Shown one piece after another: positions 17,840 to 62,400 of a stretch of DNA of 64,000 nt (positions within the stretch are counted from its first letter, which is position 1; each line of letters opens with the position of its first letter). The notes below the pieces were generated by a model, which worked only from the letters and a program-made list of their open reading frames with translations, did no database searches and was not told where the DNA came from. The DNA is from Coptis chinensis. Taxonomy: Eukaryota; Streptophyta; Magnoliopsida; Ranunculales; Ranunculaceae. Both the position numbers and the translations under genes were made by a program. The DNA is taken from contig CM027383.1 of the NCBI GenBank assembly GCA_015680905.1, positions 82,865,001-82,929,000 on the forward strand, read 5' to 3'.

Positions 17840-18660
17840 GCATTCTAGATGATCTAAGTCTAGAATTAATACTCGAGAGAGTGTTTTGCTCAGGCAGAGT
17901 GTGTTGGCTTATAGAAGCGTAATGCTCACGGAGAGCGTTCTCGTATAGTCGATCCTAGAAGTATAGGTTCTCGACGAGCGAGGTTGAGGAGAGAGGTTGT
18001 GGAGCCACGTGAAGCTCCGAGAGAGTCGTGCGCTCACTCGAGGAGCATTCTCGTTTGGTCGATCCTAGAAATATAGGACCTCGACTTAACAAGACTTGGA
18101 GAGGCTGTGGAGCCTATAAGCTCCAGAGTCGCGCTCCGGAGGAGCGTTTCGTTTGGTCGATCCTAAAATATAGGACCTTGACTTAACAAGACTTGGAGAG
18201 GCTATGGAGCCCTGTAAGCTCCGGAGAGTCGTCGCTCCGCGGAGAGCATTCTCGTTTGGTCGATCCTAGAAATATAGGTCCCTCAACTTAACAAGACTTG
18301 GAGAGGTTGTGGGCCTGTAAAGAGAGTCGTCGCTCACTCAGGAGAGGCGTTCTCGTTTGGTCGATCCTAGAAATATAGGTCCTCGACTTAACAAGACTTG
18401 GAGAGGCTATGGGAACTCGTGAAGCTCCAGAGAGTCGCTCCGGAGAGCATTCTCGTTTGGTTGATCCTAGAAATATAGGTCCTCGACTTAACAAGACTTG
18501 GAGAGGCTATGGAGCCTGTAAGCTCCAGAGAGCTGTCTGCTCACGGAGAGCGTTCTCGTTTGGTCGATCCTAGAAATATAGGTCCTCGACTTAATAAGAC
18601 TTGGAGAGGCTGTGGAGCCTGTAAGCTCCAGAGAGTCATGTCCGCTCCGCGGAGGCGTGT
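17840..18660. repeat. Tandem array, about 100-bp unit, seven or more copies
   Basis: The words CTCGTTTGGTCGATCCTAG, ATATAGG and CTCGACTTAACAAGACTTGG recur with the GATCCTAG core near 17945, 18061, 18159, 18262, 18363, 18463 and 18566, a period of about 98-116 bp. The array lies between integrase and the antisense frame of the Gypsy element. Such minisatellites in the untranslated part are typical of Tat/Ogre-type elements and can seed genomic satellites. Confidence 0.9.
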
Positions 18661-33181: not shown

Positions 33182-33313
33182 TTGGAAGCCAAGAGGCGGT
33201 TGAAGATTGAGCCTATCTTGGGGGGCAACAAAGACATGTTTGTTTTGGTTTGAAGGTTCCTTAAAGGAGTCCATAGGACATTTTCCTTTGTCAAGAATTG
33301 GTTGCGTAGGAAG
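33182..33313 (-). pseudogene. Helitron C 132-bp repeat exon
   Basis: On the minus strand, between an acceptor AG at 33315-33314 and a donor GT at 33181-33180, a 132-bp exon encodes 44 residues: LPTQPILDKGKCPMDSFKEP, then SNQNKHVFVA, PQDRLNLQPPLGFQ. Length, phase and motif equal those of the exons at 49712-49843 and 49953-50084 in the other Helitron. Family and function unknown. Confidence 0.7.
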
Positions 33314-33437: not shown

Positions 33438-33574
33438 CTGGGAGCAAGCAGGTCATTGAGGAGTAGGTGGCTGAAGGTAAAGTCCATCTTGAACTGGAAC
33501 ATAATTATTGTTTTTCTTGCAAAGGTCCTTATAAGTTAAGGGTCCATTGGACGTTTACCCTTATCTATGGGATC
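33438..33574 (-). pseudogene. Helitron C second repeat exon, diverged
   Basis: The minus-strand exon starts after CTACAG at 33575 with DPIDKGKRPMDP. In another frame it gives QDGLYLQPPTPQ before the donor at 33437. It is 137 bp, so small indels have broken the 44-codon pattern. It confirms that the repeat exons also occur in tandem in this copy. Confidence 0.6.
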
Positions 33575-34330
33575 CTGTAGAAACAAATAGAAATAGCTAC
33601 ACTACACCAGAATGGTCAATTTGTAACAGAGCAAAATTTTCATCTCTAACGGATATATTCGTTACCAATATTCTAACGGATATAAACGTTAGTGATCAAG
33701 TTATCCGTTACTTTATCTCAATTTATTCTTTAAATTATTTTATAAGCATTTTCTAATATAACCTAACGTTAATATCCGTTAGAAAACAGCGAGAATACCA
33801 ACGAAAGCTAGTCCAGTGGTCACCTTGTTACTTTACGTAGCTTAATGTCCCATGTTCGACACTGGGCAGCTACAATTTTGTTATTTTTTGTAATAAAAAA
33901 AAAACCAAACACGCAAGAGAATTAGAGAAATTTTAAGTGGCTGCTCCGATCAAAAAGCTAGGCTCATCTTTGACCAAAAGTGTTTTCTTTTCCAAATCAA
34001 AACCGGCTAATCTTTACTATTTTCATCGCCATTCTAAATCGCCCTTTCTATACACACCCCGTGTTTTGCTTTACTTCAACCTAAAAAACTCAAATTTTCC
34101 CTTTCTGATGAAGCCACCCAATTAACCCTAAATTTCGGTGAATAACTATCCTACGCTCATGGGAATAAATTTCTGTGATATCATTTTTTTTTTTGGAGTG
34201 GTGGGGCATTCGGAGGTAGAAGAAGACGGGTTTTTGTGGCTGCAATCAAAGGTAACTTGAATCTCTCATAGTTTGTCACTTTTGATTGATTCATCCCATT
34301 TATTTGTTTCTTCATTTTTTGTGTTTACAG

Positions 34331-38779: not shown

Positions 38780-39470
38780 ATCAAAGGCATTGGGGAGGAG
38801 ACCTTCGCGGACTAAACATCCAAATCAAACTGGGGGCAAATTGAGTCTTTTATCATCCGCCTCACTGCCGATCAAAAAAGATGGGGAGGGAGGAGCCCTT
38901 CATGGACTAGTGTCCGAATCAAACCGGGGGGCAAATTGAGCTGCCCCATCCTGGCTTCACAGCTAATCAAAGACAGCGAGGGGAGGAGCCCTTCAAGGAC
39001 TAGCCGTCGAATCAAACTGGGGGAAAATTGAGCTGCCCCCATCTGGCTTCATAGCTGATCAAAGACAGCGAGGGGAGGAGCCCTTCGCGGACTAAACGTT
39101 CGAATCAAACTGGGGGCAAATTGAGCTGCCCCCATCTGGCTTCACAGCTGATCAAAGACAGCGGGGGGGGAGCCCTTCGCGGACTAAACGTCCGAATCAA
39201 ATTGGGGGAGCCCTTCGCGGACTAAAATCAAATTGGGGGCAAATTGAGCTGCCCCCATCTAGCTTCACAGCTGATCAAAGACAGCGGGGAGGGAGGATCC
39301 CTCCGCGGACTAAACGTCCGAATCAACTTGGGGGCAACCCTGACTAGCTTCACAACTAACCAAAGAGAACGAGGGGATTAATCCCTTCGCGGGTGGTAGA
39401 TTCAAAGCAACTTGGGGGCAACCCTAGCTGGCTTCACAGCTAACTAAAGTTTGTAGGGGAAATGGGTGCA
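38780..39470. repeat. Tandem array, about 93-bp unit, seven or so copies
   Basis: Units share GGGGGCAAATTGAGCTGCCC, TTCACAGCTGATCAAAGACA and GGAGCCCTTCGCGGACTAAA. The TTCACAGCT word recurs near 38955, 39048, 39141, 39262, 39350 and 39433. The array lies at the C-terminal side of the antisense-type ORF region at 39771-42015, the same relative place as the array at 17840-18660. Confidence 0.88.
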
Positions 39471-47217: not shown

Positions 47218-48896
47218 TAAAGAGCATCATATCAAATCACCTAAAAAAAGCAACTAAAAACAAACACCAACACGACCCCTCTCAGCAAATAAAGTAATGC
47301 TTATTTAATCATTATCCAAAGCTACCATTATATCACAAAAATGTAAGCATAACTAAAAGTGTTAAAAAGTTTTCTTTGCTCTCTTCCAATATCTTTTTTA
47401 TTGATAATTGCTCTCTTTCCAGTCTCACAAAAGTCACAACTATTACTTAACAAATTCCAATTGCAAAAGATAAAATGGAAGCAATCTATATAACAAATTA
47501 GGGAAGGGTTGGGCACGATCCGACGGTCCAAACACTTTCTCAGAGTTTCACCCTGTTTATGACCTGGCGGAATCTACGGATATTTGGTCATATGTCTCTT
47601 TAGTTAACGCAGACCGGCACACAGTATCGCGATTTCCTCCAAATAAACCAACGCCTCCCCCTTTTTATTTTCTCCTCACTCTCATCCCTACCGCCCTCAT
47701 TTCTATCACTCCAAATTTCTATTCCTCCAAATTTCACTCTCATCCCGACCAACACTCCATATTTCAATTCCTCATCCATCTACCTCTTCATTTAACCCAT
47801 TTAAATTGGTTTTGGAAAAGTAACTATTCCTTATCCAAGGTCAGACACTACTATATTCAGACACTACTACACTACTATTTTTTTTTGGTTGTATAGAAGA
47901 AGAATGGTTGAGGCGGGTGGAAAGTTTGAGGGAGAAATAATTACTAATATATATATTTCACTTTTACCGATATATATATTTCACTTTTACCGAATTTTAA
48001 TGATAAATTGTGATATGAGTTAATTACCCTAATTGCTTTAGTATTATGCGATTTCATTTCTTTGGTTTGGTGTGAATGGTAAAATTGGTATTTTAGGATT
48101 TGAAATGAAATGTAGGTGCTTTGTTTGGTCCATGTATTGAATCGTTTCTTCTCTTGAGTAAACCTTCCACATGCTATGTCATTGAATTCGCGAGGATAGT
48201 GTTATTAATTTCACCAAATCATTTGTTCACAATTGTCAACAGAATTAGCAGTGCCCTCTAAATACTTTATTTTGAGGCGCTATCCCAGAGTCACTTAAGG
48301 AATGGAACTACACAGCATTGATCCATTTTTGTTGGGGTTTTGGATGAATTATTTATATTGCCTTGATCAATCTCGTTGGGGTGGCATCGGCGTCATGCAA
48401 CGTCGAGAAAATGGCGCACATATTTTGGACGACTGGCTTGATCGATTGAGCGTTGCCTTCCCCTAATCGACACTAAGAAAATTGGCTGCCACTCTGCCGC
48501 GGTTGACCTTCACACTTCACGGTGACCTTACTTTTTAAAGTTAACTTTCTTCGAGCTCGAACTTTCTTTTCCCACTTCTTTTTCTCAGAGCTCAAGGCTA
48601 AAGCAAAAATCCAAATATGTACTTACAAGGATCTACATTGTTGGATTCTATTATGTGTGACTATATGAACTGCTTTATGGGCTTTTCTCCAACTTCTGTG
48701 ACACTCCTAAAAAGAGTGCTGTGATGATGACCTTTTGCGCGTCGGGGACGCCGAAGGCACACGTATCTGTGTCCCAAAGTAGAAGTTAGTTGTTTTGAAA
48801 AGTATAGCTGGTTCTCTGGTTTTTCAAGGTTAGGATTATCAGTCGTCTAAGAGTGGAAACAGTCATGCTCCTATAACTTCCCTTTTCATAGTCAGC

Positions 48897-49045
48897 AACA
48901 ACCCCTTTCTCCTTTCTCTCTACCAAAGGACCCTTTTCTCTTTTATCCTTTCTCCTTTTACGTCTACCGAAGGACCCTTTTCCTCTTTTATCCTTTCTCC
49001 TTCCTCTCTACCGATGGACCCTTTTTCTCTTTTATATAATGCCTT
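48897..49045. repeat. Minisatellite, about 52-bp unit, three copies
   Basis: Three tandem units share CTACCxAxGGACCCTTTT, CTCTTTTATCCTTTCTCCTT. They lie in the 5' non-coding part of the plus-strand Helitron. Confidence 0.85.
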
Positions 49046-49472
49046 ATTCCTTATATTACAGTTGTGCGTTCTTATTAATATAAACAAGTTCTATATTGAA
49101 GCAGCGTGTATTTGTAGTTTCTATAGTCAATAACAAAAATAATAACCGCATAAAATCACAATAGCATTACATTTATTATTCAATGTATTTGTAGTTTTAA
49201 TCGTATATAACCAAATTAATAACAAAAAATCACAACGACATACATTTATTATTCAATTGTTTTTTATACTCATGCATTATATGAAAAAATATCCTCATTC
49301 TAGCTTTCACATAATGTAATTATAGCTATGTTATGTAGACATGTATCCTTGCTGGACATGAATTCTTTATGTGGCATCTTACTGCAGTATCAAAAATCAA
49401 TGTTTCTTATAGCTAATTACCATTCCTTCTCTTTTCTCCGTTTTAAATTTTGAGTGTACAATTTCTATGAAG

Positions 49473-49599
49473 GATGAACTTGATGGTGGACAAGGGAAAA
49501 TGGCCAATGGACCCATTTCAGGATCCTTCAAACAAAAAAATTAAATATTCAATTCCTACAACAGATAGGTTGAACCTTCAACCACCTCTTGGCTTCCAG
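49473..49599 (+). pseudogene. Helitron repeat exon 1
   Basis: After an acceptor AG (49471-49472) the frame reads MNLMVDKGKWPMDPFQDPSN, KKIKYSIPTTDRLNLQPP, LGFQ and ends at a donor GT (49600). It is the first of three related exons. It is 127 bp, slightly shorter than its neighbours at the 5' side, and could carry the start codon (ATG at 49474). Confidence 0.6.
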
Positions 49600-49711
49600 G
49601 TATTCTTGCTGTTTCTATTACATTGGTTCGTTAATCCACATGGTACTTATTTCTTACTAGTCTCATGATTTATATGTTTGCTTCTCTATTTATTTTGGGT
49701 TATGTATATAG

Positions 49712-49843
49712 CATCCAAACCAACCAACCATAGACAAGGGAAAACGCCCAATGGACCCTTCTCTTGATCCTTCGAATCGGCCGATAAGCACCTCTATCCC
49801 TCTCCAAGATAGACTCAACCTTCAACCACCTCGTGGCTTTGAG
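49712..49843 (+). pseudogene. Helitron repeat exon 2 (132 bp)
   Basis: Acceptor AG at 49710-49711, donor GT at 49844. Exactly 44 codons: HPNQPTIDKGKRPMDPSLDP, SNRPISTSIP, LQDRLNLQPPRGFE. Phase 0 at both ends, so skipping or duplicating it keeps the frame. Confidence 0.7.
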
Positions 49844-49952
49844 GTAATTGAATTGCGGTCTTATGTGATTTATTATACTAACTGTTGACATTGCACATCA
49901 AATTTGCTTTATATTTTCTCCTTCTCTAACTTTTTCTTTGTTCTTTATATAG

Positions 49953-50084
49953 CGGCCAAACCGACCAAACCTACAAAACAGAAAACGCCCACTGGACCAT
50001 TCTCTTGATCCTCTTAACAAGAAAAAACGTGTCTCTGTCCCTCCACAAGATAGACTTAACCTTCACCAACCTCATAGTTCTCAG
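49953..50084 (+). pseudogene. Helitron repeat exon 3 (132 bp)
   Basis: Acceptor AG at 49951-49952, donor GT at 50085. 44 codons: RPNRPNLQNRKRPLDHSLDP, LNKKKRVSVP, PQDRLNLHQPHSSQ. The same phase and motif as exon 2, more diverged at both ends. Its 3' half is repeated at 50318-50366 by the 282-bp tandem duplication. Confidence 0.7.
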
Positions 50085-50600
50085 GTACTAATACTCCTAC
50101 AATGTTTCCCTCTCATTATCTACCCAATTATCCTCTTTTTCTATTTTCTTATCATTTACCTATTTGCTATGTCACTTGTATACCTTATCTTCGGGTGTTT
50201 CTTTACATATGGGACTTCGCCGATACCAATATTGCCATATATATTATCTTTATTTCATATACCTTATATGCTTTATAGTCGTTTCTTTGCATATAGTAGT
50301 TATATAGATTTTACCTGTCCCTCCACAAGATAGACTTACCCTTCACCAACCTCATAGTTCTCAGGTACTAATACTCCTACAATGTTTCCCTCTCATTATC
50401 TACCCAATTATCCTCTTTTTCTATTTTCTTATCATTTACCTATTTGCTATGTCACTTGTATACCTTATCTTCGGGTGTTTCTTTACATATGGGACTTCGC
50501 CGATACCAATATTGCCATATATATTATCTTTATTTCATATACCTTATATGCTTTATAGTCGTTTCTTTGCATATAGTAGTTATTTAGATTTTACCTTTGG
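50036..50600. repeat. Tandem duplication, 282-bp unit
   Basis: The unit from CTGTCCCTCCACAAGATAG (second copy starting near 50318) to AGTTATxTAGATTTTACC is repeated with very few differences. It covers the 3' half of repeat exon 3 and the following intron. Confidence 0.9.
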
Positions 50601-50749
50601 AAATTTGGTTTATGTTTATCTCTGTTCCAATTTCAAACTGTATTTCGTTTCCTCTATGTTCTTATCCAATTACACTAACTTATCTCAAATCAGACGATTG
50701 ACTACAATTTGCCCAATTAGGTACAACCATCCCCTTCTCCTATCAGAGA

Positions 50750-51560
50750 CGTTCGCCTAACAAATAGAATTATTGCACAGCGTGCTCGAAGGGAAAAGAA
50801 AAATTGAATAAACATAATGGGTATCAAGCAATGGCCCATCGATTGTCTGGTTTTGTGGTGGATGTCCACCCTCCAATTCCAGGAACTCCACCTCAAACTG
50901 TCAGGCTTCTACCTCAGCATAGTCCAATCACACCTCATTCCACATCAACTAAACGACTCAATTTTACGGAATCTCTTAGAACATCTCTCTATGTTCTTAA
51001 TCCTATTAGGTTATTTACACTGCCTGAAGAATGTACTCATGTTGATTCAGCACCTGTAAGCAATAGGTGAGTCTCGTATGTCATTTTATTGGTTTTCCTT
51101 GCATTCCAATTCACACCTCACCTTTATTAGCTTTCTACAACACATGTATTCTTAGCTTTGGTGTTGCGTTACCAAATAATGCAATTCCAAATTTCAGAAA
51201 TGAGTCCTTCGCATCAACGTCGTCTTACCAAAATGCAAGGTATAACACCACAGAGCTCTTTACAACTTTCACTTCATATTTTCTACTTTCCAATATTTTC
51301 TTACCCATATAAGCTCCCTTGCAATGCGTGTAACCTCATTTCGTCTACATCAAGCTTCCCTGATGCAATACCACATTTACCAAGTCTACGTTCTGAGTCA
51401 ATATCAGCTAACCAAAATTCAAGGTAATTTCTCCGCTAAAATGTTTGCAATAATAACAAATTGTTTACACCTCAGTCTAAATCCTTTTAATACTTCATTC
51501 TTGCGTAGACCACAGTCATTCCAGTATACTGCACAACCGTTCTCTGAACGTGTTGATGCC
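50750..51560 (+). pseudogene. Helitron upstream exons (TNRIIAQRARREKKN and following)
   Basis: Short exons: TNRIIAQRARREKKN (from about 50757, followed by a stop near 50803), then PGTPPQTVRLLPQHSPITPH, LNFTESLRTSLYVLNPIRLF (to a donor-like GTGAGT at 51067). A small exon follows around 51190-51240, then one at 51350-51424 with PHLPSLRSESISANQNS. Each exon ends at a GT donor. The counterparts lie in Helitron C at 31820-32174. Function unknown. Confidence 0.5.
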
Positions 51561-52857
51561 ATGAGTGAAGATGACGATGAAGATGCACTCGACTACAATG
51601 GGGATGTGCACACGACTCATAATCCTAACCGCCCAGTTGAACAAGGAAGACACTACTTGGGGAAAATGGACGTTTAATGTCCATTTTGTATGGCACTTCA
51701 TTGGATGGATGAACGATTATCAAAGTCATCATTGTCACGTCCTCTTTTTGGGAGATGTTGTTTACAAGGAAAGATAAAGCGTCCTCCTTTGCAACCACTG
51801 CCACCTGCGCCCTTAAAGTCTTATACGATGGGAATGATCGGAAGACAAAGTCATTTCGAAGATATATGCGACAATATAATCAAGCTTTTGAATTTACAAG
51901 TCTTGGAGTACAAGAACACTTATTTACTGGACGGGGTCCAAGGCCTTTCACTATTCACGGTGAACTGCGACATCGCACCGGAGCTTTAATTCCTGATGCG
52001 GGATATCAAGCTATTTATTCTCAACTTTACATCTATGATCCCAGTGCTGCACTAGCTGTCCGTCAACTTCGTAATCCTAAGCTCAACACGGATGTCTTGA
52101 AAATCATTCAAGCTACTATGCTCCAATATAACCGCTTTTCTGATACATATCGCCACGCATATGATGTTCTTAGATCGGCTTCTTCTGAGCATGGTCAGGA
52201 CTTCAATGTACCTGCTTATTTACATTACACTGCTTCAAGAGACAGTCGTCGGTACAACTTACCAACAACAGATGAGGTTGCTGTCATTTTACCCGGTGAT
52301 GGCAGTGAGCGAGCAAGTATGAAAGACATTGTCATTTATCTGAAAGGAGGGCAAGAATTCATGCAAATTAGTGAGTGTCATCCAGCTTACTTACCATTGC
52401 ATTATGTCCTATTGTTTCCCCATGGGGAGCTTGGATGGACACCTAAATTGCGGCGTTGGGACTCTTCAACCGCTACCACCACTAATGATAAACGACGGAC
52501 GGATGAATTTTTATTCTTACCCTCTTGTTTGATAAGCCCACGAGAGTACTTTCGGCTATTTTGCGAGGGAGAAAGTTGTTTGAGGAGTTTGTGGTGGACG
52601 GATGGGCATCAACCGAGAAAAACAAAATGCGCTACTATAGGCAACAACAAGACAAGCTCTGTGCAGAACTATATCAAGGTATCACTGATATGTCAGCTGA
52701 TGCTGTCGATCCAAATCAGATTGGAAGGCGAGTCGTACTACCATCATCCTGTATCGGCAGCCCTAGGCATATGTTTGAAATGTTTCAAGACTCCATGGCA
52801 ATTACACGTTACAACCACCATCCAGACATATTCCTCACAATGACTGCAAACCTGTAG
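51510..52857 (+). pseudogene. Helitron protein N-terminal region (Helitron-like N)
   Basis: The exon starts after a TTGCGTAG acceptor (51510). It has an acidic part (SEDDDEDALDYNGD), then VEQGRHYLGKMDV, a stop, CPFCMALHWMDERL and FGRCCLQGKIKRPP: the zinc-type CxxC...CC signature. Then QAFEFTSLGVQEHLFTGRGP, FTIHGELRHRTGALIP, DLQPDY-like downstream part, GGQEFMQISECHPAYLPLHY, VLLFPHGELGW, and after a frame change near 52520 KMRYYRQQQDKLCAELYQGI, GRRVVLPSSCIGSPRHMFE and DIFLTMTANL. Breaks: stop at about 51676, a shift near 51750-51760, one near 52510-52530 and a stop at 52855-52857. Confidence 0.8.
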
Positions 52858-52949
52858 TGGACGGAAATTCTTGAAGCATTGTTTACATACCAAACTGCTT
52901 ATGATCGCCGGAGGTGGTTGCCCGTGCTTTTGAATTGAAATGAAGAGCT

Positions 52950-54530
52950 TTGATGGAAGTAATCAAGAAGCATGGTGTCCTTGGTGTGGCAGTTGCTCAT
53001 GTTTACACCATTGAGTTCCAGAAACGTGGTCTGCCACATATGCATGCACTTATATATCTTCGGCATTCAGACAAGATCCGAGTATCTGCACAAGTGGATC
53101 GCATTGTATCTGCGGAATTTCCTGATCCTGACACTAGGCCTGAATTATTTCGTACTGTACTAAGATGTATGGTTCATGGCCCATGTGGCCTTAAAAATTC
53201 AAACTCTCCTTGCATGGTTAATCATCAATGTAAATATCACTATCCCCGAGCTTTCACAGATTGTACAACTATGGATACAAATGGATATGCTCTCTACCGT
53301 CGTCGTGACAATGGGAAGTCTTATTTTGTTAGAGAACATACAGTTGATAATAAAAATGTTGTTCCTTACAATCCTTACCTTTCTAAGATGTTTGATTGTC
53401 ATATTAATGTTGAAGTTTGTGCAGGACTTACTTGTGTGAAATACATTCACAAGTACATATTTAAAGGTAATGACAGAACAACAATTGTGTTGAATGAATT
53501 GGATGAGATCAAGCAATATTTGGATGCGAGATATATTGGTCCACCTGAAGCTGCTGTGAGATTGTTAGGAATTTCTTTGCACGAGGAGATTCCAACAGTT
53601 GTGAGATTAGCCCTTCATCTCCCTGGAATGCATCGTGTTGTGTATAATGCTAATGAGTCCATGCATGATATACGGGCGAGGGAAGAGAGGCAACGGTCAA
53701 CTCTTACTGCATTTTTTGATTGTTGCACTTCAGATGCACGTGCAAGGGGGCTCACATATCAACAAGTGCCAAAACACTACGTTTGGATCAAGCAACACCA
53801 AAATTGGAAATTCCGGGAACAAGGGTTTGCTATTGGTAGAATGTATTTCGCGAGTCCTAATTTTGGTGAAAGGTTTTACTTACGCTTGCTTCTAACCGTC
53901 GTGAAAGGGCCACGGTCCTTTGATGATCTGAAAATGACTGGTGCTGATTTACATCCAACTTTCAAAGAAGCATGTATTGCGCGCGGACTTCTTGAGGATG
54001 ATAGTGAATGGGTGCAGTGTCTGCAAGAGGCCTCAACCATGCAGACTGGCTATCATCTTCGTCGACTATTCTGTGTTATTCTCACAAAATGCAATCCTCT
54101 ATATCCCCAAACATTGTGGCATGATTTTTGGGAGAGTATCTGCGACGACCTCTCACATAAACTTCGCACCATCTTCAACATTCCAGAACCTACCGAAGAT
54201 GAGGTCCAAGATTATGGTTTATTTCTTCTAAATGAGATTCTCATAGAATCAGGTAAACTCCTCATTAATTTTCCTCCTATGCCACTATCAACCACCAATT
54301 GGAATTCAGTTGTTGGTAACCGACTTATATGGGACCAACGACAATTTCAATATGATCCACAAACTAAAAAAACACATGGCAACAGAGTTCATTTAAATGT
54401 TGAGCAACACTCGACATATAAAGCAGTCCTGAATTCTGTTTACCGAAATCAAGGGACACTCTTCTTTTTGAATGGGGCAGCAGAGACAGGCAAGACTTTT
54501 GTCTATAACACCATTGCTGCTACGTGTTAG
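52950..54530 (+). pseudogene. Helitron Rep (HUH nuclease) and start of the helicase
   Basis: A 526-codon open frame. The HUH-type motif lies near residue 32 in FQKRGLPHMHALIYL. A cysteine-rich part follows (MVHGPCGLKNSNSPCMVNHQ), then the Rep tyrosine motif VKYIHKYIFKGND near residues 165-180 and ARYIGPPEAAVRLLGISLHE. Further on come FASPNFGERFYLRLLLTVVK, and at the end the helicase Walker A segment [18 protein letters not shown] just before a TAG. Walker A has Glu where Gly is usual. Rep cuts and rejoins strands at Helitron termini; the helicase part unwinds. The stop makes the fused protein incomplete. Confidence 0.9.
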
Positions 54531-55079
54531 ATTGAGGGACATATTGTTATTATGGTTGCTTCATCTGGAATAGCTTCATTGCTATTGGCTGGCGGTCGGA
54601 CTGCTCACTCAACCTTTTGCATCCCACTGGACATTCTTGATACCTCGGTTTGTGGGTTCAATAAGAATTCACCGCATGCCCACTTATTCAGGGAAACTAA
54701 ACTTATTATTTGGGATGAGGTCCCAATGCAAGATAAGTTCTGTGTTGAGGAAGTTGATCGGATGCTTCAGGATACTTGCAACAATAATAAGCCTTTCGGT
54801 GGAATTACAGTTGTTCTTGGTGGTGACTTTCGCCAATGCCTTCCAGTTATACCCAAAGGGGTGCGAGAACAAATTGTGCGTGCTTCTTTGCGGTGTTCTT
54901 TCCTCTGGAATCATATTCGGGTTCTAACTTTGGTACAAAACATGAGATTAGAACATGGGAACTTTGCGAATATGGGTTTCGCGAATTTCTTGATCGAGGT
55001 AACCACTTATGTATTCTGCTTTCTCCTCCTTTGTTTCAAACTTATATCCATTAATCTTTTTCTGTCTTCTTTCGTTTAG
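54531..55079 (+). pseudogene. Helitron PIF1-type helicase, motor part
   Basis: Continues after the TAG with [20 protein letters not shown], Walker [21 protein letters not shown], motif [23 protein letters not shown], and [20 protein letters not shown]. An intron with a GTAACC-type donor follows near 55000. Matches 27963-28487 in the minus-strand copy. Confidence 0.88.
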
Positions 55080-55864
55080 ATTGGAAGTGATCCAAGTGAG
55101 ACGGTGGAACTGCCATCGACAATTCGTCAATGTGCAGATCTTCGAGAACTAATTTCTGCTACATACCCTCACTTGAGTCATACTGCCACAGTCACACGGG
55201 ATATTTAAGCGAAGCGCATAATTCTTTTCGCACATAATGATGATGTCAATGAAATTAATGCAACAACTTTGAATATGTTCCCAGGAGAAACGACTCTCTT
55301 TCTAGCTGCCGACAAGATGGAGGATGCAGAAGCAAATAATCCAAGTAATATTAATCAATACCCAAATGAGTACCTAAACACACTTGATCCAACTGGTCTG
55401 CCACCATTTCGTCTTAACCTTAAAGTTGGTAGTCCTATAATGTTGTTGCGAAATATTGCTCCCAGAGATGGACTATGCAATGGAACCCGATTGGTTGTGG
55501 TACAATGCAAACCACACGTTCTTTTTTCCAGCATTTTATTCCAAGGATATCTTTGTCACCATCGTCTTCCAATTTTCCTTTCCATATGACGAGAAGACAA
55601 TTTCCAGTTCGATTGGCCTATTCAATGACTATTAATAAGTCTCAAGGACAATCAGTGAAGTATGTTGGTATTGACCTCTGCACGGAAGTTTTCAGTCATG
55701 GTCAATTGTATGTGGCGCTCTCAAGATGCACTTCGGTTCGGCGGACAGGATTAGCATTCTTCCGCCTCCAAATGCAGAAAGTCAAACCGCGAATGTCGTA
55801 TACCCAGAAGTTTTGCTATAAACATCTTCAACGACAAATGTGTAATATCCCTTTTCCCACTTAG
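55080..55864 (+). pseudogene. Helitron PIF1-type helicase, C-terminal part
   Basis: Reads [20 protein letters not shown] (from 55080), then, after a stop near 55206, [61 protein letters not shown] frame change near 55530 precedes [17 protein letters not shown] and [12 protein letters not shown] (motifs V/VI). The frame ends beyond VYPEVLL-like residues. The equivalent of 27027-27795. Confidence 0.88.
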
Positions 55865-58120
55865 TTTATTTTCTTTCGCTTTGTTTTCGTAAGTGGACAC
55901 TTTTGTTCCTGTACTTACTGTCTTTCGTAACATATGAACAGGCACCTGACTACATCTTTGGATGTGTTTACCCAGAAAGCGATAGATCTTTCTTCACTCT
56001 CTCGCAGGTACGACTTCTTTTCTTTACTCTCGCAGGTACGACTTCTTTTCTTTATTGAAAATAAAAAAAGACTATTGATTATATCATATAATATGTGAAA
56101 ATTTTAGGTTTGATTATTGATTTAATGACATCATATATTTAAACTGTTGCTAATTTTGCACTCTTTTTTATTAGATTTTGTAGGTAGGTACTGTTTTTTT
56201 TAATAGAGAAAAGAAGAAGAAGGATGATTTCCAGTGAACGTGTTGCAAATTTGGCTCTTGCAGGTATCTATAATTTATCTTCTTTAGTAAATCATGGTTT
56301 CATTATGTAATGATGATTTCTTGTTGATTGATGGTGTAAAATTTGTGGGGAATTTTAATAGATTGTTTGTTGAGGGTTTTATGGGATGTGAGTAATTCAT
56401 TTTATTGTAACCTGTTATGTTTTTGGGGTTGTACCCGAAGTGTGTGTAAAGTTTGAGATAATAATTGTAGTTTACAAGAATGCGTAACATACCGATTGTT
56501 GAATTGTTTTGTGAAGTTAATAATTACGAAAGGAGAGAAATTATGAATCTCATACAATAAATTTTTACAGGTTTGGCGTTAGCACCTTTGGTTGTAAAGG
56601 TCAATCCGAATCTGAATGTGATTTTGACGGCATGCGACCGGTGTATGTTGGTTGTTATCGATCAGTCAAACCAACACCTCCTACCGTAAACCACAGTTGT
56701 TAGCACAAGCATGTTTCTGGTTGTGATTTGACAAAGTATCGATATTTTTTTTCATCGATCCGAGTTTTACGCATTTTGATCATGCAGAGGCGATGTCAAA
56801 TGAGTATGCTATCGCTTCCCTTTGATTGGGAGTGCAATCTTTGTTGTCACTGTTTTTGCTCTTCAAGTTTTTGTCAAAAGATTTGGTTAATGCTGTACTC
56901 ACGTGTTACTTCTTTGTACTTGGGATCTTAGCACTTTCGTAAGTTTTTTTCCCTTTTTCTTATTTTTATTAAGGTTATTGATATACTAATCCGAAATTGT
57001 CTTTGTCTAACTTTTTTATTTTGTTATGAACAGTGCAACATTATTACCTGCAATTAGGCGTTTTCTTCCAAAAAATTGGAACGATAACATAATAGAGGCA
57101 ATGCCATGTTACGTTGCAAAGAGAAAAAGAAAAATTGGAGGTATGATCTTTCTCAGTCATTTAATTCTCTTCCTTTGCATATTTTAGGTAAATGATTCTC
57201 TGAATCGAATAACCAATTGAGAGTATTGAACAAATTTTATAAGCACATTTGATATGAATCAAGAAAGGCCACGACTGATACTAGGAAGCGGGTGAACGGT
57301 CGGTTTGTCGAGGAAAGTGAAAGTCAAGGTGCTGATGAGTAGATGAATTGGATTGGATTGGGAATGAACATTTACGAATGTCTATGTATGCTTAATAACT
57401 ATGTGAAATCCCAAGAGGTAAGTTGATGTAATGTTGCTCACATGTTGGCCATCTCAGTTTGGGAATAATGATGGCTGACCCTTCTATATGGTGCCATTAT
57501 TCCCTAATGTTGTATTAGTCTCTGAATATGCCTAAAATATGAAATGGTAAGCATCTGTACATAGTCTTTATTTCATCTGTTTCGAGAGATTTATATGTCA
57601 AGCAGTTAAGCCAATCTAGGCCATTGTAAATTCATTAGATCTTCGTCTTTTTTATGACTACTCTGTCTCCATTTTTGCCTTGGCAAATCAGTAAATCTTT
57701 GTTTTCGGGTGATTCTGTACTCCGTCAAAATTGCCAAGAGCCTCAGCAACTAAAGTTAAATACTTACATAGTTACATGGATGAAAACCTGCCAGCCGTGT
57801 TCAACCCGACTTCATAAATCAAAGGAAGTGGCGAAAATATAGGTTATTATGGAATTGACAAACTATGTAAAGATGATGTGATTCCTTTTCTTCTGCGTTT
57901 TTTTTTTTTTTATGTTCTCCAGGTTTACGAAAGGATTCAATATTCAAGAAAAACAGGTTGCCTATACCCAAGTACAAAAAACACCAACATACATTTATTT
58001 TTGTCAACGTCAAATTCTATATGATTTTTTTTCATGATCTGACCGCAACTAAATATAATTTCCATTGTTTTTGAACGTTGCCTTTAGCTTGGTGTTGATA
58101 TGTTTTTTTAATTAAAGACA
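55865..58120. other. 3' non-coding tail of the plus-strand Helitron
   Basis: No secure gene. A duplicated CTCTCGCAGGTACGACTTCTT occurs at about 56001 and 56029. Exon-like pieces with AG/GT borders occur near 55942-56007, 56207-56262 and 57030-57140, perhaps a further small gene or 3' exons of the Helitron. The longest frames carry no motif I know. Confidence 0.45.
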
Positions 58121-58173
58121 CCTTCGCGCCGAAGGCGCCCGTATCTGTGCCGTACAGCACGGGCAAACCCTAG
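58121..58173 (+). other. Helitron 3' terminal module with hairpin
   Basis: CGCGCCGAAGGCGCCCGTAT, then CTGTGCCGTACAGCACGGGC, AAACCCTAG. The GTGC...GCAC hairpin lies about 11 bases before the CTAG terminus, as expected of a Helitron terminator. Confidence 0.8.
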
Positions 58174-59378: not shown

Positions 59379-61040
59379 GTGGATAGTTACCAGCAACAAC
59401 AAGTCGGTAATGGAGCAGAGAACGATGTCAACGACGTTAATCAACAGATTAATGAATTATCACAAAGGATTGGTCAGAACGCCGTAAGAAGGATTCGACA
59501 CAGATTGTGCACAAGATGCTTAAGACACATATCGGCGTCTCCGTTCAGCACAGAGGTCCTCAATAAACCCTCTCCACAAGACTTTATCCAACCACGCTTT
59601 CCCATGTATGATGGCAGCACGTGCCCTGGTCAGCATGTGGCTCGCTACATTCAGAGTTTGGCACTTTACAGCTCACCCGAGTTTGATCATCTCCACTGCA
59701 GATTATTTCCCGACAGTCTCAAGGATGGCGCTCTTGATTGGTTCTTTTCACTGGAATCCGATTCTATCAAAACCTTCGAACAGCTTACTGATTTGTTCGC
59801 CAGCCAGTACGTCCACAACAGGCGGAAGAAGGCAGATCTTGATTCTTTGTTTCAATTATCATTCAAGGAAGACGAAACTATTCGTGAGTTCCTAGGACGG
59901 TTCAAGGCCGAACTGTTATGCATGGAAAGCGGCTTGAAAGAATCTTTCGCCACACTGGCCTTTTCCAATGCTTGCCGAGTGCGTAACACCGACCTCTCCA
60001 GGTCGTTGATGAAGGAACGCCCAGAGACACTGTCCGAACTCTACGCTCGCGTGGACAAGTACATCAAGTTGCAGGAATCTTTGAAACTCCACGGCTTAGA
60101 CGAGAACCAGGAGGTGGCAGCAGTTTCAGATCGTACTCCACGGGCCAAGAAGCGCCATAGGTCGCTTGTACCAAAAGCCAGTACCCGGTCAGACAACAGC
60201 AGAGAGTTCGCTATCCTGACCCGCTCCCCCAGTTACATTCTGGGTAAGATTAAGCGAGCCCCATTCTTCCGACCCGATGTGAGGCAACCAGTAGATCGAC
60301 CTGACAAGCCATTTTGCGCATTTCACAACGCAAAATGCCATGAAACTGATGCATGCTGGGGGCTTAAACATTATCTCCAGGATCTAGTAGAAGCTGGCCA
60401 TATAAAACAATACACTAGCATTCCTGACGGCGACTTGCGTCACAAACTGATGGCTCGCCGAGTCCGAAGTCGATCTCCACCTCCCCATCGCTACCAAGAG
60501 GTTCAAGCTCGTCCTCGCAGTAGAGGCCGCCCACGAGATCGTTCGCGCCACGAGCGAAGGCAGCACTCATCCGATCGTGACAATGATCGAACTATTCACG
60601 TGATTACTTTCCCGGACGACTCCGTCACCTCATCCAGAGAGAAAAGACGTCGTGTCGGCGCTCTTCAGGAAGTCTATCATTTCACTTCACAGGCAGCTCA
60701 CGCCCCGCGTGGTTCAGGTCGCAGCGTAGGCGATATCACTTTCACGGAGGCCGACTTAAGCAAAGTCTGCCTTCCTCATAATGATGCATTGGTAGTCCAT
60801 GTCAAAATTAGCGACTGGACAGTCAAGCGCGTCCTGATCGACCCCGGCAGTTCCTGTGACATCTTGTTCTACCACACCATGCAAGAGATGAATCTTCCCA
60901 AGTCCGTCCTCGTAGACCCGATCGCCCCCCTTTATGGGTTCAATGGTTCCCGGGCCGATCCCATTGGTGATATTATACTTCCGATTTGTCGGTGGGATCT
61001 AGAGAGGACAAGATCACCGCAATACGGTTCTGCGTTCTAG
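59379..61040 (+). mobile_element. Gag and protease region of the right-hand Gypsy element
   Basis: Contains the Retrotrans_gag domain (SLALYSSPEFDHLHCRLFP, KDGALDWFFSLESDSIKTFE, about residues 85-180). An arginine-rich segment with CAFHNAKCHETDACWGLKHY and RSRGRPRDRSRHERRQHSSD follows. The retropepsin-type aspartic protease comes last (VKRVLIDPGSSCDILFY, then LYGFNGS). Gag packages the RNA, the protease processes the polyprotein. Fossil element. Confidence 0.88.
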
Positions 61041-61454
61041 CGACAAAATTAAGCCATACAATGCCATACTTTCGGACGACGTTGGATCCATCGGATCGCG
61101 GCGATGCGTCAACTTTGCATCAAGTTTTCCGTTGATGGAACTTAGAAGCAATCAACTTGAAGCGTACCATTGTAACCAGATCATGTCAACAAGTGAAACT
61201 GCCCGTGAACCGACCCCCGCCACACATGAACCCACCAATTACACAATGGCACATGACTTGGTTGCGAAGTCCGACCCGACCGCCAAAGAAGAATGAATGG
61301 GGGCTCTAGCAAGCAGATTTTCTCTCCAATGTAGATACCCTTTTCGCTCCCGAGTCCCGCTTCGCCAAACAAAGATCTCCAGATTGATCCACCGACAGTA
61401 ACTTCGTCAGTTAAAGTATCAGAGGTCGTCTCACCTCGTGTTAGGCCTCCACAG

Positions 61455-62400
61455 ATGACAGCAGCAGCCACACCATCAATATGCATGCAGCCAGGTCCCA
61501 CTTCCCAGGTCGTGGGTACCCCTGTCAGCGTTGCCGCACAAGTCGCTCTACCCTCAGCGACCAGTCATGTCGTCCCACAAAGTGTTCGGACCTCCCCCGA
61601 TAGCGAATCGCCAAGCGGCTGCCGCCATCGATCGCGCATCACCTCGGTGACACAAAGAGAAAAAGTGAACCTAGGCACCGAAGACGACCCCAAGTTTGTA
61701 TATGTAGGGGCTAACCTCGACCCCACAATCAGGACCCACCTTGTAAATTTCTTATCTATGAATAAAGATGTTTTTGCTTGGTCGTATATCGATGTGCCCG
61801 GAATAGATCCCGCAGTCGCATGCCACAAATTAAATGTTAATCCCAATGCTAGACCAGTCCGACAACGACCCCGCCGCCTATCCCTGCGTTTTCAAAAAGC
61901 CATCAATGACGAGGTCGACAAACTAAAGCAAGTCGGTTTTATCAGAAAAGTAGACTATCCGGAATGGATCGCTAACATTGTGGCAGTACCCAAAAAGAAC
62001 GGAACAGTTCGCCTATGCGTCGATTTTACGAACGTAAATCAGGCCACTCCAAAAGACAGTTTTCCCTTACCTCGCATCGACCGACTTGTCAACCAGACCT
62101 GTGGTCATGAGCTTCTCTCCTTCATGGACGCGTACAGTGGGTACAACCAAATCCTACTCGTAGAGGAGGATCAAGAGAAGATCTCTTTCATTACAGAGCA
62201 AAGGGATCTATTGCTCTAACGTTCTCCCATTCGGCTGAAAAGCGCCCGGAAACAGCGTATCAACCTTTGGTCACTACATGTTCCAAGACATGTTAGGCGA
62301 CACCATGGAGGTCTACATCGACGATATGGTCGTCAAAAGCAAAAAGCCGGTGATCACCTCGCCCCTTGAACAAAGCGTTCTCTAGATTACGCCCGAGCGG
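61455..62400 (+). mobile_element. Reverse transcriptase region of the right-hand Gypsy element
   Basis: Motifs in order: NPNARPVRQRPRRLSLRFQ, EVDKLKQVGFIRKVDYPEW, NIVAVPKKNGTVRLCVDFTN, FPLPRIDRLVNQTCGHELLS, FMDAYSGYNQI and the catalytic YIDDMVVKSK (about 62315). YIDDM(V/L)VKS is characteristic of the Tat/Athila side of Gypsy. Fossil. Confidence 0.88.

Follow-up and report, generated by a model that had tools for sequence, protein, structure and literature searches.

Does a Helitron transposase gene begin with a string of duplicated exons, and what would such a string do? The question is raised by a stretch of 64,000 nucleotides of the Coptis chinensis genome (GenBank assembly GCA_015680905.1, contig CM027383.1), hereafter the window, which corresponds to C7:82865001-82929000 of the 935.6 Mb that we searched. 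A first-pass annotation of this stretch had proposed that a 44-residue module recurs there, one per exon, upstream of the Rep and helicase (RepHel) part of a Helitron. Arrays of this module occur in families A, B and C of Helitrons, whereas a fourth type (D) has only the initial ten residues. The arrays probably consist of repeated coding exons, for which duplications could be documented, and they likely form the N-terminus of the Helitron transposases of this genome. We propose that the repeats would be the duplicated first coding exons of the RepHel transposase, kept as protein and forming a multivalent tail. We are highly confident of the anatomy and of the origin by exon duplication, and moderately confident of this explanation taken as a whole.

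Modules A2 (49712..49843) and A3 (49953..50084) lie on the plus strand and were described correctly: they are symmetric phase-0 segments of 132 nucleotides and 44 codons, with AG before and GT after, which encode variants of the motif in an open frame. A3 is closest to A2. A third copy had been placed at 49473 to 49599. Its motif was recovered but its extent was not: position 49473 follows an AG and may be an exon edge, and the likely start codon is the ATG at 49483. Module A1 (49483..49599, plus strand, with a GT at 49600) would thus be the coding part of the first coding exon. It has 39 codons and shares the 44-residue motif of A2 and A3, the start codon replacing the first residues. The half copy reported at 50318 is present, but not as a stand-alone repeat. 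It belongs to a 280-bp tandem duplication whose second unit (50315..50594, plus strand) contains the 3' half of A3 (to 50364) and intron. The two units (50035-50314 and 50315-50594) are 99% identical, intron sequence included. After the array comes a basic segment, VQPSPSPIRDVRLTNRIIAQRARREKKN (50721..50804, plus strand), which would be in phase 0 if spliced after ATTAG and is followed by a stop in the window copy.

The module reported in another Helitron of the window, at 33182-33313, does encode the motif, on the minus strand (the plus strand holds a stop). This is module B2 of family B (132 nucleotides), and to it we add a second, frame-broken module, B1, at approximately 33465..33577 on the same strand. 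The predicted exons are symmetric, as proposed, but not uniformly of 44 residues: the first exon has 39 codons, the tail of B1 differs from that of the other modules, and our reading of the sequence places a short exon of 17 codons after the modules in families B and C. This phase-0 exon, which reads RPSDSVPLSHLPPSGSH in family B and RPTDDIPPSLQPSSG[T/A]Q in family C, lies 3' of module 2 and resembles a shortened module (L012, L033, L034, L036 and L050).

In family A, remains of RepHel lie downstream of the modules on the same strand: two open stretches (52950..55079) hold the end of a Helitron_like_N match (PF14214, E 3.5e-9) and a PIF1 helicase match (PF05970, E 3.3e-53), which is the combination of HUH Rep and PIF1-like helicase expected of a Helitron. 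The family B element of the window is homologous to family A across the Rep and helicase parts, and family C is tied to RepHel through matches in L043. In type D, nothing of this kind was seen except the LYPVRLFT segment of L054.

Module arrays in three Helitron families

When the genome was searched with the DNA of A2, 44 matches were listed (from 70 candidates, 40 scored), of which 25, the window included, had 90-100% identity. Our family A set consists of the window and 20 of the other 24 places, fetched as 9.9 kb each (n = 21). Matches to A1, A2 and A3 occur in all 21 copies, although some are incomplete or interrupted by stops or frameshifts, and the unit of the half-module duplication is present twice in the window and in L014, three times in L013 and once in the other 18. 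The search with the minus-strand module listed the best 40 of 178 candidates. We read seven family B elements: the window, three top matches (L010-L012) and three weaker matches of the A2 search (L033-L035). B1 and B2 were matched in all seven, several of them broken. One element, L034, has five module matches, three with a stop or gap. Its comparison with itself revealed a unit repeated 881 bp further on at only 70% identity, and the duplication is therefore old. For family C, a search of the C2 type listed the best 40 of 207 candidates, and we read 12 loci (L037-L048). C2 is present in every one, stop-free in ten, and C1 is recognisable throughout (broken in L041, L042 and L047). Two further places, L050 and L051, were chosen since two pattern matches stood close together. 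They carry C2 and the short exon in tandem, 373 and 378 bp apart and 96.7% and 93.6% identical, respectively.

Matches to DNA patterns for the two halves of the motif exceed chance. The genome has 151 matches to a degenerate pattern that encodes KGKRPM-[D/H/N/Y]-P and 238 to a pattern of looser codons for D-R-L-[N/T]-L-[Q/H]-x-P; the reversed control of each had none. Among 100 listed places of the 238, 55 are grouped, two to four together, into 23 clusters, and 45 are single under the strict pattern. The list for KGKRPM also provided L052, a fragment with a single A1-like module. Type D was read at two (L053 and L054, 601 bases each) of the five places that match its start pattern with at most one mismatch. 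Both begin with MDKGKRPMDP, without the rest of the motif. The LYPVRLFTL segment of L054 resembles the LNPIRLFTL or LNPVRLFT of the other families: for each of A, B and C, one sequence has a basic segment and an LNPxRLFT segment after the modules.

These copies suggest a history. In a module tree with midpoint root, B2 and C2 separate from the rest (support 0.90), A2 groups with A3 (0.92) and A1 with C1 (0.85), and B1 stands beside the latter pair with weak support (0.47). Hence, two modules were most likely present before the three families parted, although the tree supports this weakly at one branch. Within family A, A3 seems to have been copied from A2, as the two have the lowest synonymous divergence (dS 0.46) and common sequence just upstream of their acceptors. 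Each of the three families underwent further duplications, after which one of the copies has often decayed, and the tandem duplication of exon-bearing units bears out the proposal that copy number varies by exon duplication. The features of tandem exon duplication (symmetric exons, conserved splice borders and shared flanking intron) are all present, with splice sites predicted from sequence. Whole modules are in phase 0 at both ends, which implies that each duplication could keep the frame. We therefore propose that an ancestral N-terminal exon (M-x-D-K-G-K-R-P-M-D-P...QDRLNLQPPxGFQ) would have been duplicated along with flanking intron sequence, the phase-0 borders of every copy preserving the frame as copies were added. 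The two-module ancestor would have given rise to a third module in family A, from its second, and to later duplications in some B and C copies.

The ancestral exon might itself have come from a host gene, if an ancestral Helitron captured a fragment of it that was later multiplied in the form of exons. Helitrons capture host exons, and two of the 12 family C loci carry what is apparently such a capture downstream of the modules. It is a fragment of a PPPDE peptidase (Peptidase_C97), at L037:555-866 on the minus strand and L044:2269-2579 on the plus strand (E 2.2e-26 for the copy in L036/L037), in which the N-x-NNF segment has Tyr in L037 and Cys in L044. Type C was for a time a candidate host gene, since its first copy (L036/L049) runs into this fragment. 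This was dropped because L043 leads into RepHel matches; L041, L042, L046 and L048 align with L043 along about 3.1 kb. The loci that we read belong to families A-D, either as members or as fragments, four modules had no Pfam match at E values up to 10, and a profile search of PDB found no match at E values up to 1. Furthermore, the version with the start codon comes first in A and C, and family D begins with the initial residues of this version too. A source gene could be missed by searches that score or list the best 40 to 100 places, with RepHel sought in some of the loci. On balance, between the host-derived and the Helitron-specific origins left open by the first-pass annotation, a host gene is not indicated, and we regard capture as very improbable.

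Constraint, predicted splice borders and likely start codon

Are the modules protein? We compared seven representatives, one of each module of A, B and C. The ratio of nonsynonymous to synonymous divergence (dN/dS) is below one in all 21 pairs (0.11-0.76; dS 0.46-2.34, median 1.07). Fisher's test on six pairs gave p <=0.0014 for five, three of which share no sequence (9e-4, 2e-4 and 7e-4). The corresponding ratio of proportions (pN/pS) averages 0.47 in the real frame; of the five alternative frames, four have averages of 1.33-1.94. These results point to translation of the modules and to constraint on the protein between families. If the array were instead a non-coding 5' regulatory or untranslated sequence, open by chance, one would not expect the synonymous excess in the coding frame, nor that start codon and borders would both be retained. 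Other repeats do gather at this end of the element, since a pyrimidine-rich tandem repeat (44 bp, three copies) lies within the Helitron upstream of A1, at 48904-49035. We give a non-coding array hardly any credence.

The predicted splice dinucleotides are nearly invariant. In family A, the donor of A1 is kept in 20 of 21 copies, the acceptor and donor of A2 in all, and the acceptor and donor of A3 in 19 and 21. Both borders of C2 are kept in 12 of 12 loci. Within family A this proves little, because introns are about as conserved as exons, and the strength of the argument lies in the agreement between families. For the same reason we dropped the internal conservation of family A as a sign of selection.

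The first module copy most likely starts at the ATG at 49483, which is kept in 20 of 21 copies of A1 (GTG in the other). C1 has an ATG at the equivalent place in ten of 12 copies, and both modules give M-x-D-[KR]-G-K-R-P and 117 coding nucleotides up to the donor. An ATG at 49474 was also considered as a start codon and rejected, as 18 of the 21 copies read ATTG. In families A and C, translation thus probably starts within module 1, which would make the array the N-terminus of the transposase. In family B, we noted by eye an ATG directly before a GT (AATG|GTATGT; GTACGT in L035) upstream of B1 in L012, L033, L034 and L035. On one reading, the start of this family would sit just before module B1.

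Several observations weigh against a protein maintained by selection. The seven representatives were picked as intact, so that the absence of stops in them counts little, and other copies have stops or frameshifts. The pair A2 and A3 shows no significant constraint (dN/dS 0.76, Fisher p 0.51). One antisense frame also has pN/pS below one in 21 of 21 pairs (mean 0.56); this frame has stops in seven of seven modules, and we attribute its low values to the coincidence of wobble positions. Exons and introns of family A are about equally conserved, as in decaying copies, and 73% of intron dinucleotides reach 95% conservation. Patterns for three exon-exon junctions, as would be found in once-spliced copies, had no match in the genome, which says little because Helitrons are not known to transpose via an RNA intermediate. 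No working array of more than three modules was seen among the loci read, and one of the two C2 copies is frame-broken in L050 and again in L051.

Some of these observations are what one would expect if the modules were neutral passengers. On this view, a disordered N-terminus would tolerate symmetric exons duplicated in tandem, which would do nothing by themselves. The lack of constraint between A2 and A3 fits this explanation, as do a copy number that varies among copies, duplicated units that take in plain intron and half an exon, and extra copies that are often broken. Yet dN/dS is 0.11-0.59 in the other 20 of the 21 pairs, and the three families agree in frame, in splice borders and in the relatedness of modules by position. 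We thus consider neutral passengers unlikely and prefer a protein sequence that would be maintained by selection.

The carrier element and its surroundings

The family A Helitron of the window extends over 47485..58173 on the plus strand, from A|TCTATATAACAAATTAGGG at the 5' end to CTAG|T at the 3' end. It has the 5' TC and 3' CTRR ends of a Helitron, inserted between A and T: both ends were found in the window copy, and the 5' end in nine other copies. The 5' end (A|TC at 47485) is the same in these nine of the 20 fetched copies, chosen for inspection because their matches began at 47482-47484, one of them (L015) with one base different. The 3' end at 58173 was read from the window copy alone and is not uniform in the family. 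Five copies (L017, L019, L027, L028 and L030) diverge from the window element after 58127 into a common alternative continuation, so that the 3' end differs between subgroups. A GC-rich palindromic stretch, noted by eye before the CTAG, might form the hairpin expected close to the 3' end of a Helitron.

Just past the Helitron, at 59379-62219, there are matches to a retrotransposon gag and, under the Pfam cut-off, to a reverse transcriptase. The window contains two other tandem arrays, with units of about 103 bp (17929-18654, seven copies) and 92 bp (38792-39209, 4.5 copies).

Candidate roles of the repeated tail

What might a repeated tail do? Profiles of the module gave 13 pattern stretches in viral contigs and 30 in bacterial or archaeal genome contigs, none of which was confirmed. 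We read the module as a flexible peptide, also from an AlphaFold run with 12 sequences. Its mean predicted local distance difference test score (pLDDT) of 67.5 and predicted template modelling score (pTM) of 0.15 are weak backing for disorder, and in this respect count against our explanation. Among 12 aligned module sequences, K11, P13, N22, D33, R34, L35, L37 and P40 are invariant and R12 is nearly so, which delimits two conserved parts, K11-R12-P13 and D33-R34-L35-x-L37-x-x-P40. The array would then be a flexible, multivalent tail that precedes the Rep/Hel core and is made up of short linear motifs, in which the basic half (K-R-x10-basic) could serve nuclear import and/or DNA contact and the conserved DRLxLxPP half could dock a putative partner.

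A bipartite nuclear localization signal consists of two basic residues, ten residues and then three basic among five. This pattern, KR-x10-(3 of 5 basic), is present in A1, A3 and C2, where shuffled sequences reach it at rates of 1.6%, 4.9% and 2.5%, respectively. It fails in four of the seven representatives (A2, B1, B2 and C1), five of the 21 copies of A1, including that of the window, have W in place of R, and the second basic cluster lies outside the conserved columns. These failures tell against import as a full account, and the last of them implies that import alone does not explain the constraint. Known transposases offer a parallel. In the bat Helitron Helraiser, forms of the transposase lacking the N-terminal 489 residues failed to bind single-stranded DNA, and the N-terminus has a putative nuclear localization signal and a role in DNA binding (PMC4778049). 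The available passages of that report mention no exon-encoded repeat. The wheat Helitron Xuan-Feng (FENG8) is from a plant and has a multi-exon RepHel (seven exons) with a large N-terminal domain (residues 1-638), of which a stretch of 264 residues is disordered; the available passages describe no repeated exon module (PMC13286980). By analogy with these N-termini, nuclear import or DNA contact is the likeliest single role of the tail, a choice that we make tentatively.

The invariance of the second conserved part speaks for an additional docking role of the DRLxLxPP half with a putative partner. This could be taken further, in overlap with our explanation: the unit that matters would be the DRLNLQPP half, as a peptide for docking and recruiting a host factor, the basic half would be mainly a spacer, and more copies would give stronger multivalent recruitment. 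The five invariant residues of that half (D33, R34, L35, L37 and P40) and the half-exon duplication of family A, which copies it alone, agree with this. Against it, K11 and P13 are invariant and R12 nearly so in the basic half, and the two type D stretches retain only the KGKRPMDP half. We therefore find it doubtful that docking is the whole story. A more speculative version, which we think improbable, is an evolvable array in which the start-codon exon acts as a cassette, duplicated as a whole exon, half exon or exon pair, and the number of exons tunes the dose of a host-interaction motif, like valency in adaptor proteins.

Our search of titles, beginnings of abstracts and passages found no description of a repeated exon module in Helitrons. 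The rice Helitron Mothra has repeat blocks with a varying number of units, which its authors ascribe to slippage or unequal crossing-over; according to the passages available, these blocks belong to a non-autonomous element without RepHel, whereas the units described here would be coding exons of RepHel (PMC4683698). The tandem duplication of symmetric exons is a general mechanism of gene evolution, in which phase-0 exons with intron flanks keep the frame. What differs here is that it takes place in a transposase and recurs in sister transposon families. A conserved N-terminal tail built of repeats would offer a concrete, testable target for studies of the nuclear entry of plant RepHel or of its contacts with host factors, and would illustrate how duplicated exons can bring about change within a transposon gene.
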